Source of the DNA: Glandiceps talaboti | Lineage: Eukaryota > Hemichordata > Enteropneusta > Spengelidae | Assembly (NCBI RefSeq): GCF_964340395.1 | Contig: NC_135555.1 | Coordinates: 1,421,501-1,485,500, forward strand | Direction of reading: 5' to 3' | DNA: 64,000 nucleotides | In this document: positions 8,450 through 48,365 of the stretch, one piece after another | How positions within the stretch are numbered: position 1 is the first letter of the stretch | How the letters are laid out: the number at the start of each line of letters is the position of its first letter | Program-made: the position numbers and the translations under genes | Notes under the pieces: model-generated | The model's input: the letters and a program-made list of their open reading frames with translations, nothing else | What the model was told of the DNA's origin: nothing | Databases searched by the model: none

Positions 8450-9807
8450 TGACTAACTGAGACTGTCAGTTGGAATCCGTATACTGACAAACCCAATCTG
8501 AGACTGTCAGTTGGAATCTGTATACAGACTAACTCAATCTGAGACTGTCAGTTGGAATCTGTATACAGACTAACTCAATCTGAGACTGTCAGTTGTAATC
8601 TGTATACAGACTAACTCAATCTGAGACTGTCAGTTGGAATCTGTATACAGACTAAATCAATCTGAGACTGTCAGTTGGAATCTGTATACAGACTAACTCA
8701 ATCTGAGACTGTCAGTTGGAATCTGTATACAGACTAAATCAATCTGAGACTGTCAGTTAGAATCTGTATACTGACTAACTGAGACTGTCAGTTGGAATCT
8801 GTATACGGACTAACTCAATCTGAGACTGTCAGTTAGAATCTGTATACTGACTAACTGAGACTGTCAGTTGTAATCTGTATACAGACTAACTCAATCTGAG
8901 ACTGTCAGTTGGAATCTGTATACAGACTAAATCAATCTGAGACTGTCAGTTGGAATCTGTATACAGACTAACTCAATCTGAGACTGTCAGTTGGAATCTG
9001 TATACAGACTAAATCAATCTGAGACTGTCAGTTAGAATCTGTATACTGACTAACTGAGACTGTCAGTTGGAATCTGTATACGGACTAACTCAATCTGAGA
9101 CTGTCAGTTGGAATCTGTATACGGACTAACTCAATCTGAGACTGTCAGTTGGAATCTGTATACAGACTAACTCAATCTGAGACTGTCAGTTGGAATCTGT
9201 ATACGGACTAACTCAATCTGAGACTGTCAGTTGTAATCTGTATACAGACTAACTCAATCTGAGACTGTCAGTTGGAATCTGTATACAGACTAAATCAATC
9301 TGAGACTGTCAGTTGTAATCTGTATACAGACTAACTCAATCTGAGACTGTCAGTTGGAATCTGTATACAGACTAAATCAATCTGAGACTGTCAGTTGGAA
9401 TCTGTATACAGACTAACTCAATCTGAGACTGTCAGTTGGAATCTGTATACAGACTAAATCAATCTGAGACTGTCAGTTAGAATCTGTATACTGACTAACT
9501 GAGACTGTCAGTTGGAATCTGTATACGGACTAACTCAATCTGAGACTGTCAGTTGGAATCTGTATACAGACTAACTCAATCTGAGACTGTCAGTTGTAAT
9601 CTGTATACAGACTAACTCAATCTGAGACTGTCAGTTGGAATCTGTATACAGACTAAATCAATCTGAGACTGTCAGTTAGAATCTGTATACTGACTAACTG
9701 AGACTGTCAGTTGGAATCTGTATACGGACTAACTCAATCTGAGACTGTCAGTTGGAATCTGTATACAGACTAACTCAATCTGAGATTGTCAGTTGGAATC
9801 TGTCTAC
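8450..9807. repeat. 41 bp satellite with 35 bp variant units and higher-order order
   Basis: About 33 head-to-tail units of GAGACTGTCAGTTGGAATC-TGTATACAGACTAACTCAATCT type (41 bp), interspersed with a shorter 35 bp form that reads TTAGAATC and TGACTAACT. Each unit contains the inverted repeat AACTGAGACTGTCAGTT (6 bp arms, in short units) and the palindrome GTATAC. Variants (GTTGTAATC, AAATCAATCT, TTAGAATC short, CGGACTAAC) recur in a similar order roughly every six units, about 240 bp. The array lies outside any exon found. Confidence 0.95.
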
Positions 9808-27592: not shown

Positions 27593-39858
<12,266 letters not shown>

Positions 39859-43500: not shown

Positions 43501-46500
43501 CAGGTGTGCTAGTTCACTGTAAGGAGACTGCAGTATATTCCATCTCTCAGCTGACTTCTCATCTTTATGGACAATGTGCATCGTGAAGAGGATAATACAA
43601 CCAGTGACAGGCAAGCATTTACAAGCAGAACCCGTCACAAACAGAGAAAGTAAATAAATGAAATGGATTTATAACTCTTGGCACAGCATGTTGGAAATAC
43701 AGAGATAGTGTATACATTTCATAGTTTGATGAGAACAGTTTTATGGACTTTCCACATGTACATGAAATGCCAGGGGAACTTAAAATTGTCTGTAAATGTG
43801 ACCTATTGTGTAAAGAGGCTAGAAAATTGTTCTTATCAAACCCTGAAATGCAATACACAGTCTCTGTACTTCCAACACGCTGAGCCAAGTGTTAGTAATC
43901 CAATTAATTTGTTTACGTTCCCTGTTTGTAACAAGTTCCACTTGTAAATGCTTGCATGTCACTGGTTGTATGTCCAAATCTACAGTGACTGAACAGAACT
44001 ATTGTTAACACTCTTATCAAAGCTGATAATGTGATAAAGTCACTATGGTTTCATTTGTGTTTTTCACAGGTATAGCTATGGACAACTTATAGAAATCAAC
44101 AGCCACAGTTTATTTTCCAAATGGTTTTCAGAGGTAAGGAAAAAAAACCAAGGAATTCTTCCCTACCCTGTAATAATATTTATTGAATTATGTATAATAA
44201 TTTACTATCAGTGTCTTTTTGAATTCTTTCAAATGTCATTGATATGAAATCAAATCAGTTATTATTTTCAAGTTTCATTCTCATTATTCCATATCATTTT
44301 GTATTCATTTCAGAGTGGAAAACTAGTGATGAAAATGTTTAAAAAGATCCAAGATTTGATAGATAACCAAGATTCCTTGGTTTGTGTTCTTATTGATGAG
44401 GTGAGGGACAATTAATTTATAATGATATTATACGTTGTTGGTTTATATCCCCTCTACTCCTTCCAGGTTCCTTTCTGTTGTATTTTTTTCAAATAAAGGA
44501 AACTTAGAATTGATATCATACATAGACATGATATGTGTAGTCATTTGAGATCATATGTTGGTGGTTTATATCTCCTCTCCTTAGTTCCTTTGTTTTATAT
44601 TTTAAAAGAAGACAAGAATTGAGATATATTGTAATATTAAATACATACACATATGTAATCATAAAAGACCATACATTACTGGTTTATGTCCCCTCTACTC
44701 CTTGTTTCCTTTGTTTTATATTTAAAAAAAGAATTGATATATATATACACATAATAGTTATTAGAAACCATACACAATTGTTTTTTTTTATTTGTATTAC
44801 ATAGGTTGAGAGTTTAACCTCAGCCAGGAAGAGTGCATTGAATGGTACAGAGCCATCGGATGCTATCCGAGTAGTAAATGCACTGTTGACACAAATTGAT
44901 CAAATCAAAAAGTAAGTCAGACTTTCTGCTCTGAAAATCATTATTTTCTATTACAGAACAATATAGTTATTTTAGAATGGTAAATTGGAAACTAATGTGA
45001 TGTTTCGATCCATCTACTACAGACCTTGATCATGCAATGATTTGATTATTCAGCGTTAATGTTTCTCTCTGAACTGGTGGAATAATTGTTTTTTAGCTGT
45101 ACAGTTAAATTTGTTTCATCAAACAAATTTGAAATCTTAAGGTATGAATTAACTTATACACAACCAGAATACTTACATGTAATACATTGATAATTTCTGT
45201 TAATTGACAGACACCCCAATGTGATCATCCTTACAACATCCAATGTAACTGGTGCGATAGATCTAGCTTTTGTTGACAGAGCTGATATCAAACAGTTTAT
45301 TGGAATGCCTTCTCCAGCTGCAGTCTTCAAAATCTATCATTCATGCCTCAATGAACTCATGAGAGTAAGTACAATATATATAAAGTAAGAAAGTATTTTA
45401 ATTCTCCATATTTAATTTGGGTTATATTTCATACTTTGATTGTTATGCCAGATGAAACACTGCAAAATTATCAATACAATGTCAAGTACTTCTTTGGTGA
45501 AAATGTAATGAATGCCTCAAGTACTTACCATATTTTAACACAAACTGTATCATCTTCATCAAGAATTTAATGAAATATTCTAACTTTAGTAGGTAGAGTA
45601 AGGTTACTGCACCTATCACATCTATGAATTTATTGTTTAAACTCCTGCCATTGCTCTTTGAACCCATACATGTAACTAAATGTTGCAATGCAAGGCAGTG
45701 ACTATTTATTACTTGGTTGATTCAGACATAGGGAATATTTGTCAATGTGAGTATTCCCTAAAGGCTGGTTTTTTAAATGAGTGACTATAAACAAGAGTGC
45801 CCACAATGCCACTTTTCAAGGCCCAATGTTGGTGTTATGAAGTCAAGTTGATCTGCCTATTTCCAAGGACATCCACCTCAAAAAGACTGAATTGCTGATA
45901 AAAAATGTAATTTTAGTAGCTACATCTTTTCATCAACAAAGTGATACCACAGTTGTTTAAGGAAAATAAATTCTAAATAATTTAACATTGTTCAGATCTG
46001 TAACTTAACATGCAATCAAAATAGTATTCATCATGATCAATTTTTCATTTCTGATTGCCTTCTACAGACTGGTATTATAAGTCCAGCACAACAGTTAATG
46101 GATATGAGGGGACTGGAAGTGATGCGATTTATTGAAAATGATGCTACAAGACTTAGTCTTAAACTCAGGGAAATTGCCATGTAAGTCTATAATACAAGAC
46201 TTAGTCTTAAACTCAGGGAAATTGCCATGTAAGTCTATAATACAAGACTTAGTCTTAAATTCAGGGAAATTGCCATGTAAGTCTATAATACAAGACTTAG
46301 TCTTAAATTCAGGGAAATTGCCATGTAAGTCTATAATACAAGACTTAGTCTTAAATTCAGGGAAATTGCCATGTAAGTCTATAATACAAGACTTAGTCTT
46401 AAACTCAGGGAAATTGCCATGTAAGTCTATAATACAAGACTTAGTCTTAAATTCAGGGAAATTGCCATGTAAGTCTATAATACAAGACTTAGTCTTAAAT

Positions 46501-48365
46501 TCAGGGAAATTGCCATGTAAGTCTATAATACAAGACTTAGTCTTGCGATGTAAGTCAATCACTGTCACACCATAGACCTTCCAACCTCCATTGAGTGGAG
46601 GGTCTATGGTCACACCTTACACTTTAACAAATCATGCCAGTCTGACAACATGTAATACTGATATACAATCCTTGTATGTAAAGTGAAAGAAGTTGATGCA
46701 AAGTCATTATGACTTCTTGGTCAAAGTTGTCTCTGTAATGCCTAGCCTGTCTATAATCATTAGTTCCAATCTGTCAGACTGAGTATGTTCTATTTGACCC
46801 ACTCCACACCAGTACTGATTGTTTCCACTGATAAGTAATTACGGTATATAGTGAATGTTTACAGTGAAATAGTTCGGTTATAACAATATTAGGAGAAAAA
46901 TACTGGATGTACAGATGAAGAGGAATAGTAACAAAGAATCTCTAAAAGGGATATGATAATATACTTAATTTATTAGAAATAGTTGACATGAATACTTATA
47001 AGCAGTGACAGGTGTTGACTAAGAATATTGAAGTACTGTAGAGAAAATAGCAAGGGTTAAAAAAATATACAACACTAGATTACAAGTAAAGACCTCTAGC
47101 TAGATGACAATAAAGCGTAAATGCTGCAATGAAGAAGGTGAAATGTTTCTCCTTCGGAAAGGTTTTGTCTACTTTAGTATATAATCATTTGCAAGCCTTG
47201 TATGGCATCATGTGTTGGTTTGTACTGCACTGTACTGTACTGTACTGTACTGTACTTTACTGTACTGTACTGTACCACACCATTCAGTGATGAGTACACA
47301 GTAGATGAATTATTTATATGATTATTCTTTCATACTATGATGGTATGTATGTGTGTATGGCCATTTATTAGAATGGCAGACTTGTTTGTTAAAGGAATTC
47401 CAAAACTCCTAAATCTCTCTTTCTTTGGTTTGGTTTGCTTTGATTTCAGTAACAGTTATGGTCTCAGTGGTAGAACACTCAGGAAATTACCATTTTTGGC
47501 ACATGCAATGTACTTACAGGTAAGACTTTGTTGTGATTATCATTTTTGGCACATGCAATGTACTTACAGGTAAGAGTTTGTTGTGATTATCATTTTTGGC
47601 ACATGCAATGTACTTACAGGTAAGAGTTTGTTGTGATTATCATTTTTGGCACATGCAATGTACTTACAGGTAAGAGTTTGTTGTGATTATCATTCACTGA
47701 TACCTAAATTTACAGTATTTAAACATTACTAGGAACAGAATTAGAGTAGAAAATCAGTCAAGTAGAATGTTGTATTTGGTAAGGAAAGATTTTAATCTTG
47801 ACCCACCCAGAATTCTCAATCACAGGCATGGGAAGAATATATGTGCTTCCATGATAAACATACTTTGTTTTCTTTGTTCACCATACCAGTACTATTCGCC
47901 AATATTTTTCTTTGTTCAGCCAAGGAAAATACAAGTGACCTAAGGAGCCTTGTCACTATGAGTCACTAGATGAGTTGTGACAAACCCATAGGTCATGAAT
48001 ATTTTGCTGTTGAATGAAGACAAATATTGGGGGATAATTAATATATCTCTTCAAGCACAAATCATGAATAATCGGCAGAAATAATGATTGATTGGACCAT
48101 TTAGACTCATATTTTGAGTACTGCAGAACCAGTGATGTCATGATGGTATATAATCCATATTTTCTGTTCAAAGACAATAACTTGTCTTGTGCATGGTAAA
48201 ATGAATATTATTCTTAATTATGTCTCTACAATAAATATACTCACCATATGACATTGATATCTATTTCAGAGTTCATCGACAACACTAGAAGATTTCCTAC
48301 TAGCGTTATCCCATGTAGTAAAGAGACAATTCCAAGAAAGAGAGCACTTAGAAGAACCCAAGTAG
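40563..48365 (+). CDS. TRIP13: Pachytene checkpoint protein 2 homologue, AAA+ ATPase
   Basis: Eleven coding exons joined in phase: 40563-40648, 41519-41684, 42132-42258, 42883-43102, 44070-44133, 44314-44400, 44805-44911, 45211-45364, 46068-46180, 47450-47519 and 48270-48365 (TAG). The protein is 429 aa; human TRIP13 has 432. The N-terminal domain binds p31comet and HORMA substrates. Walker A is GPPGTGKT (176-183), followed by [10 protein letters not shown]; the pore-loop region is [16 protein letters not shown]; Walker B is VCVLIDE with Glu250; sensor 1 is TTSN with Asn297; the arginine-bearing DRADIKQ and the C-terminal [20 protein letters not shown] are conserved. With p31comet it remodels closed MAD2 and HORMADs, silencing the spindle checkpoint and controlling meiotic recombination. 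The last two introns begin with tandem copies of the preceding exon ends. Confidence 0.98.
42285..42484. repeat. Compound TG/TGTC microsatellite, TRIP13 intron 3
   Basis: 200 bp of TGTGTCTG-type repeat beginning about 27 bp after the exon 3 donor. The transcript is UG-rich here, which could attract CELF or TDP-43 type proteins. Confidence 0.95.
43596..43970. mobile_element. 375 bp foldback element in TRIP13 intron 4
   Basis: The left arm begins TACAACCAGTGACAGGCAAG (43596) and the right arm ends with its inverse, GTCACTGGTTGTA (43970). Inverted similarity continues for at least 110 bp on each side, through CATTTACAAG, ACAAACAG and the LAVG-type GGCACAGCATGTTGGAA block. Mirrored open frames on both strands are a consequence of the palindrome. 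It is a non-autonomous DNA element. Confidence 0.85.
46146..46549 (+). repeat. 48 bp tandem array built from the TRIP13 exon 9 end and its splice donor
   Basis: Eight full units and a partial ninth, starting ACAAGACTTAGTCTTAAA at 46146 and every 48 bp after. The first 35 bases of unit 1 are the true end of exon 9; each unit then has CAT|GTAAGTCTATAAT. GT donors therefore lie at 46181, 46229, 46277, 46325, 46373, 46421, 46469 and 46517, with a ninth in changed context at 46550. Only the first keeps the TRIP13 frame: past it the sequence reads ATG TAA in frame, so use of any later donor would end translation. Copies differ almost only at AAACTCAGG/AAATTCAGG, so the array is young. Confidence 0.97.
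46565..46616. repeat. Short inverted repeat next to the 48 bp array
   Basis: ACCATAGACC and CAACCTCCA are mirrored by TGGAGGGTCTATGGT, a hairpin of about 45 bp ending the array region. Confidence 0.7.
47222..47276. repeat. CTGTA microsatellite
   Basis: About eleven ACTGT units with two changes, in TRIP13 intron 9, about 170 bp before exon 10. Confidence 0.95.
47491..47690 (+). repeat. 50 bp tandem array built from the TRIP13 exon 10 end and its splice donor
   Basis: Four units start CATTTTTGGCACATGCAATG at 47491, 47541, 47591 and 47641. The first 29 bases of unit 1 are the true end of exon 10 (FLAHAMYLQ). GT donors occur at 47520, 47570, 47620 and 47670, in units 2-4 as TTACAG|GTAAGAG. That string joins an AG acceptor-like end directly to a donor, the form of a recursive splice site, although the pyrimidine tract is weak. 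Fifty is not a multiple of three, so later donors shift the frame. Confidence 0.97.
47899..48030. mobile_element. MITE family A, copy 3
   Basis: Begins CCAATATTTTTCTTTGTTCA and ends TGAATGAAGACAAATATTGG, with GTGACCTAAGGAGCCTTGTC and ACTATGAGTCACTAGATGAG inside. At 132 bp it is among the fullest copies. It lies in TRIP13 intron 10. Confidence 0.85.

Follow-up and report, generated by a model that had tools for sequence, protein, structure and literature searches.

Nine tandem 5′ splice sites after TRIP13 exon 9 of the hemichordate Glandiceps talaboti: a probable mirage

How is the end of an exon set when its 5′ splice site stands in the DNA nine times over? The question is raised by a 64,000-nucleotide stretch of contig NC_135555.1 of the hemichordate Glandiceps talaboti (positions 1,421,501 to 1,485,500; hereafter the window), in which the end of exon 9 of the cell-division gene TRIP13 is repeated in tandem together with its donor. 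We favour, at a probability of roughly three in four, the reading that this array (array 1) is a mirage, that is, a minisatellite lying across the exon 9 5′ splice site, with extra donors that are near-neutral decoys. Work on amphioxus Adh3 gives the name mirage to minisatellite-like tandem duplications over exon-intron boundaries (PMC3087553, PMC3902484), a known kind of repeat on which few studies exist.

The repeated end of TRIP13 exon 9

The exons and the array are arranged as follows.

46068..46180, + strand: TRIP13 exon 9, 113 nt, acceptor ..TTCTACAG, phase 2 end at AT|GTAAGT
46146..46529, + strand: array 1, eight full 48-bp units with donors at 46181+48n
46182..46184, + strand: in-frame TAA, reached when any exon 9 donor beyond the first is used
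46530..46556, + strand: ninth, truncated copy with donor GAT|GTAAGT at 46550
47450..47519, + strand: TRIP13 exon 10, 70 nt, phase 0, end CAG|GTAAGA
48270..48365, + strand: TRIP13 exon 11, the last coding exon, containing the stop

Each unit of array 1 joins 35 nt of the exon 9 end to 13 nt of the intron start. The ninth keeps the first 15 nt, has a net loss of 15 nt and ends GAT|GTAAGTCAATC. This gives nine GTAAGT donors (46181, 46229, ... 46517, then 46550), the first eight of which stand within one 9-mer, CAT|GTAAGT, and the ninth of which is slightly weaker on a consensus matrix. A preliminary description of this DNA had named TRIP13, placed the end of exon 9 and listed the nine donor positions, and homology, the domain match and the motif positions agree with it. 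Its 48-bp unit also stands, with eight full copies and a truncated ninth, whereas the composition that it gave, 35 + CATGTAAGTCTATAAT, counted CAT twice and is replaced by 35 + 13.

Units 1-8 show 0 or 1 difference in all 28 pairs, and their sole variable site, an exonic C/T, reads C C T T T C T T from the first unit to the eighth. This near identity fits recent turnover, as the earlier suggestion of recent expansion or upkeep would have it. Tandem Repeats Finder reports the array at 46145-46544 (period 48, 8.3 copies, 99% match, score 779), a match that is not due to chance. A genome search, in which very common words were skipped, matched array 1 only to itself and found no dispersed relatives.

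Directly beyond the last donor of array 1, positions 46569-46610 form a strong predicted hairpin (z-score -4.6 against shuffles).

Against human TRIP13, listed as Pachytene checkpoint protein 2 homolog, exons 9 and 10 in joined form give a match at E 4.1e-16, and a profile search with the exon 4-11 chain derived from the window returns AAA_lid_TRIP13_C (1.8e-33) and AAA (6.8e-26). The lid match covers 99 residues (195-293 of the 304-residue chain) and falls on exons 8-11. Exon ends were set by homology and phase-consistent joins. Joined through the first donors, exons 8-9-10-11 have an open frame up to the natural stop. Among the best candidates scored, eight of ten TRIP13 protein matches in the genome are this locus and the other two are stretches elsewhere (34% and 39% identical), presumably other AAA ATPases; judged from these candidates, TRIP13 looks single copy.

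The first copy completes the reading frame and is in this sense the intact exon edge, the role in which it is probably also used. Conceptual splicing from each of donors 2-9 yields ..LREIAM followed by a stop, in keeping with the earlier claim that only the first donor gives a full TRIP13. This stop precedes the exon 9/10 junction by at least 44 nt and the exon 10/11 junction by at least 114 nt, and of the 99 residues in the lid match the predicted product would lack about 43. The first donor would be expected to be used, because introns 8 and 9 measure 703 and 1269 nt and because, in a study of human exon-definition minigenes, the upstream of two identical CAG/guaagu donors was used exclusively in five minigenes (PMC9225289). 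The same study reports an upstream preference under exon definition for near-equal human donors.

Donor-spanning arrays at exon 10 and beyond

The next exon of TRIP13 ends in an array of the same anatomy.

47486..47694, + strand: array 2, 50 bp x 4.2, donors at 47520, 47570, 47620 and 47670

Its unit joins 34 nt of the exon 10 end to 16 nt of intron, and all four donors are CAG|GTAAGA. Splicing from any of the three later ones would end the protein early, in one case after a shifted frame. The array is bounded by an imperfect direct repeat of 9 bp, with ATTACCATT on the exon side and ATTATCATT on the intron side; such repeats are expected under slippage or microhomology repair, and this one is a plausible seed of the first duplication. 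Array 2 likewise matched only itself in the genome search, under the same word filter, and has no dispersed relatives there. Having found each array to match itself alone, we rejected an introner or transposable element as their source.

TCACTG occurs within a few bases after both TRIP13 arrays (46556-46564 and 47694-47700), probably by chance.

With 200 kb added around the window, the neighbourhood comprises 264 kb, of which 5,000 nt are N, and contains 85 minisatellite loci (units of at least 15 bp; together 24.6 kb). Nine minisatellites with motifs resembling 5′ splice sites were inspected first; 75 arrays with units of at least 20 bp were then scanned by script at both edges and on both strands, and the rows were read by eye. 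Six donor-spanning arrays, of 2 to 80 copies, were found in four genes (TRIP13 and VAC14 with two each, BRD9 and ACOT8). No acceptor-spanning array in a nameable exon was seen among the 264-kb arrays, the acceptor rows being judged by eye without a homology search for each, and exons without names may hide further arrays of either kind. The four cases outside TRIP13 are the following, the last three lying outside the window.

33954..34123, - strand: BRD9 array, 85 bp x 2.0, exon end and donor AAG|GTGAGAG
C8:1492662-1494567, - strand: ACOT8 array, 24 bp x 80, exon end repeated
C8:1379846-1382047, - strand: larger VAC14 array, 28 bp x 79, exon end repeated
C8:1376661-1377350, - strand: smaller VAC14 array, 91 bp x 6.7, exon end repeated

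At the array within the window, a DUF3512 match (1.8e-25) spans the array exon into the next exon and a bromodomain exon lies upstream, a pair from which we take the gene to be BRD9. An Acyl_CoA_thio match (8.6e-17) spans the junction at the second array, in an acyl-CoA thioesterase gene that is presumably ACOT8, going by the human sequence. This array contains 56 exact AGGTAAG, and its 24-bp unit makes 8 codons in a frame that is open for about 13 units; later donors, if used, could append RGTIGKRP-like repeats to the protein. Vac14_Fab1_bd (1.3e-22) and Vac14_Fig4_bd (6.2e-16) flank both remaining arrays on the same strand, and by position and the human sequence we take both array exons to belong to VAC14. 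The array fills about nine-tenths of the intron, as worked out by hand, in ACOT8 and in the larger VAC14 case. The preliminary description had framed the exon 9 array as a curiosity of one gene, which the arrays at exon 10 and in BRD9, ACOT8 and VAC14 show to be wrong, and because similar arrays occur in these last three genes a role specific to TRIP13 is unlikely.

Three such loci sampled elsewhere in the genome comprise one clear, one plausible and one unclear donor array. On another chromosome (C1, 2934 kb) a 50-bp unit is present in 8.2 copies behind a clean open exon, at CACAG|GTAAGT. The exon at array L033, whose frame was read by eye, has only a Pfam match of 0.013, too weak to be of use. 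Across seven donor arrays (the six above and L033), the unit takes about 7-20 nt from the intron and 15 to about 84 nt from the exon, as measured by eye. None of 31 chaperonin exon pieces from five genes (31 loci out of 57 family matches) has an array within 40 nt.

The window also holds a minisatellite at 8457-9807 (41 bp x 33.7), to which no nameable exon end was linked.

To gauge donor motifs genome-wide, we counted triples, defined as three copies of an 8-mer with gaps of 22-52. AGGTAAGT gives 3097 matches, against 1054, 410 and 765 for TGAATGGA, AAGTGGAT and TAGGTGAA, which have the same composition, the TGAATGGA count being inflated by microsatellites. As single 8-mers outside arrays in 274 kb, the four occur 14, 25, 7 and 11 times. 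CAGGTAAGT triples number 508 against 239. The acceptor-like motifs differ from each other: TTTTCAGG is depleted in triples (53 against 159; single-motif baselines 16 and 7), whereas TTTTACAG is enriched (1955 against 725; baselines 36 and 38). Triple matches are not equal to arrays and long arrays dominate the counts, one array supplying about 65 of the 100 AGGTAAGT matches listed. Counts at the level of arrays were made by eye and are small, from lists that begin at C1 except for TTTTCAGG, which has 16 arrays in the whole genome. Among the matches listed, there are at least 5 arrays for AGGTAAGT within the initial 5.05 Mb of C1, at least 10 for CAGGTAAGT over C1-C3 and the start of C4, at least 12 for TGAATGGA on C1 (roughly half being TGGA-type microsatellites), at least about 12 for AAGTGGAT over C1-C6 to 25.7 Mb, and at least 12 for TTTTACAG on C1 together with 3.4 Mb of C2.

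The consensus units of the 75 arrays contain 24 motifs resembling 5′ splice sites at the lowest cut-off of a donor matrix, against a random mean of 16.2. Two of 100 random sets were as high and permuted matrices gave 15-26, and enrichment among these units is not clear. A codon-based scan for exon-abutting arrays found, at score 5, 2 donor cases in 150 against 0.96 expected and 0 acceptor cases against 1.04, which is no significant excess in a scan too weak to tell donor from acceptor cases. The evidence that donor motifs are over-represented in tandem arrays genome-wide is suggestive and mixed, and falls short of making the arrays exclusive to donors.

Origin of the arrays and choice of donor

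Array 1 probably arose when a local tandem duplication took in a stretch that chanced to cover the exon 9 5′ splice site, with slippage or unequal exchange later expanding and homogenising it. Its first copy would still be the exon 9 end, and the other copies would lie in intron 9 and be removed with it. Splice-site pairing across the exon would favour the donor closest to the acceptor of that exon, leading to choice of the first, and because of this preference the extra donors would be near-neutral decoys. Several points weigh against this reading. Use of the first donor in this animal is something we infer, and the mirage literature comes from another phylum, with amphioxus as its subject. 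The human minigenes tested two donors, and here there are nine. In that study, the larger constructs skipped the exon when both donors were weakened, the upstream preference was only 60% at near-equal strength, and in human events taken without strength matching the downstream donor was favoured in about 60% (PMC9225289).

Instead of being passed over, the later donors might act as a rheostat, an idea that the preliminary description had set beside that of harmless decoys. More copies would then give more transcripts spliced from later donors, which, carrying the TAA after LREIAM, would be degraded, and array length would set the TRIP13 level. All eight later exon 9 donors do share the early stop, at the distances from the junctions given above, and donors 1-8 are identical around the site. 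We nevertheless consider such tuning improbable. The upstream donor was exclusive in the closest experiment, the human minigenes (PMC9225289), amphioxus mirages are reported to cause no interference (PMC3087553, PMC3902484), and unrelated genes have similar arrays with other frames, including the ACOT8 unit that stays open through about 13 copies. Intron lengths, minigenes and amphioxus reports together favour the decoy half of the earlier suggestion; tuning of dose by copy number finds no support here. Still less probable, and in our view very unlikely, is an assembly artefact behind which the true copy number of array 1 is one or two. Tandem arrays are often mis-sized in assemblies. A mirage in the Branchiostoma floridae draft also reportedly seems to have been mis-assembled (PMC3087553). 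Against an artefact stand the non-periodic C/T pattern and distinct truncated last copy of array 1, a contig that spans 28 Mb, and the presence of other, independent arrays built in the same way.

The preferred reading, in which random minisatellites survive where the first copy is intact, also has to be set against a mutational process that targets 5′ splice sites, such as transcription-linked breaks. In favour of such a process, the 264 kb hold six donor-spanning arrays and no nameable acceptor-spanning ones, AGGTAAGT leads its three controls in triples and is not clearly commoner as a single motif outside arrays, and the unit takes in only a short piece of intron, judged by eye, in seven of seven arrays. 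The triple matches, however, are not arrays and come largely from one of them in the list, the two acceptor motifs point in opposite directions, neither the consensus units nor the codon scan gives a clear or significant excess, the chaperonin exon pieces lack arrays, and selection alone could yield the donor bias. We regard a directed process as unlikely. The broader idea that 5′ splice sites are tandem-duplication hot spots in this hemichordate lineage, with hundreds of introns that begin with, or consist almost wholly of, copies of their own donor through a process linked to the ends of exons, is put forward only tentatively, as something a little less doubtful. If true, it would be shared with amphioxus, as an old deuterostome trait or by convergence, and would provide a standing natural experiment in how a donor is chosen where 2 to 80 near-identical ones compete.

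The mitochondrial contig and comparison with known systems

The mitochondrial contig of the assembly (C40; 51,222 b) has COX1 copies about 15.4 kb apart and contains repeated copies of a mitochondrial unit of roughly that length, at 53% GC against 34% in the nuclear DNA examined. Its transfer RNAs include N-W-A-C-Y before COX1 and S-D after it. CYTB stands directly before COX3, after an apparent ATP6, an order that is not known from deuterostomes. Nine genes contain AAA once against 49 AAG, and no AGA. In five of five genes, Pfam profiles favour Ile over Met as the reading of ATA, with gains of 0.2 to 5.9 bits for each profile, in a comparison of tables 9 and 5, which also differ in the nearly absent AAA. 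ATA as Ile with rare AAA is the pattern of enteropneust hemichordates; in amphioxus ATA is Met. The code thus points to a hemichordate and away from amphioxus, the host to which the literature on mirages had pointed. A search for GFP genes, a marker of amphioxus, gave no match, nor did its control.

Tandem repeats are said to modify human gene structure, and intron gain by tandem duplication has reportedly been described in potato. In the Rogers model, as cited in PMC3087553, an intron is gained when a stretch that contains AG|GT is duplicated in tandem. Array 2 resembles this in that its copies, with CAG|GTAAGA, carry AG|GT in each unit; it differs in that there is no new intron and an existing one is merely lengthened. 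We rejected intron gain for TRIP13 on the ground that the reading frame across exons 8-11 is unbroken and needs no intron beyond those already present.

The human minigenes share with the present arrays identical donors behind one acceptor and long flanking introns. Unlike them, the arrays are natural and offer between 4 and about 80 donors, where the minigenes had two. Exons with 4, 9 and about 80 near-identical donors would make it possible to test directly, with no need of an engineered construct, how the spliceosome chooses a donor. Gene predictors, too, may be misled by arrays of this kind.

The closest parallel is with the mirages of amphioxus, where similar structures occur in troponin C, the globins BflGb6 and BflGb9 and PGBD5, splicing is reportedly undisturbed, length varies and the structures are possible seeds of new introns (PMC3087553, PMC3902484). 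Unit lengths are given there as 10-72 bp in Adh3, 150-160 bp in the globins and 60 and 108 bp in PGBD5, a range into which the units of TRIP13 (48 and 50 bp) and its neighbours (24, 28, 85 and 91 bp) fall. In both animals, tandem units of tens to about 160 bp, most with a splice signal, lie across an exon-intron boundary, one intact copy is kept as the exon edge and the inner copies are homogenised. The arrays described here differ in belonging to a hemichordate, and thus to another phylum, in affecting two successive exons of one gene, in reaching about 80 copies and about nine-tenths of the intron (ACOT8 and one VAC14 case), and in standing at donors in all six named cases, whereas amphioxus has donor and acceptor kinds. 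A literature search that covered few subscription journals found no report of mirages in hemichordates and found them in print under that name only for amphioxus. The clustering of several cases in one 264-kb stretch, their presence at two successive TRIP13 exons and introns of about 80 donor copies raise the interest of the extension to a hemichordate. Array 1 is best described as a mirage from an animal group apparently new to this kind of array, and its effect on splicing is most likely near-neutral.

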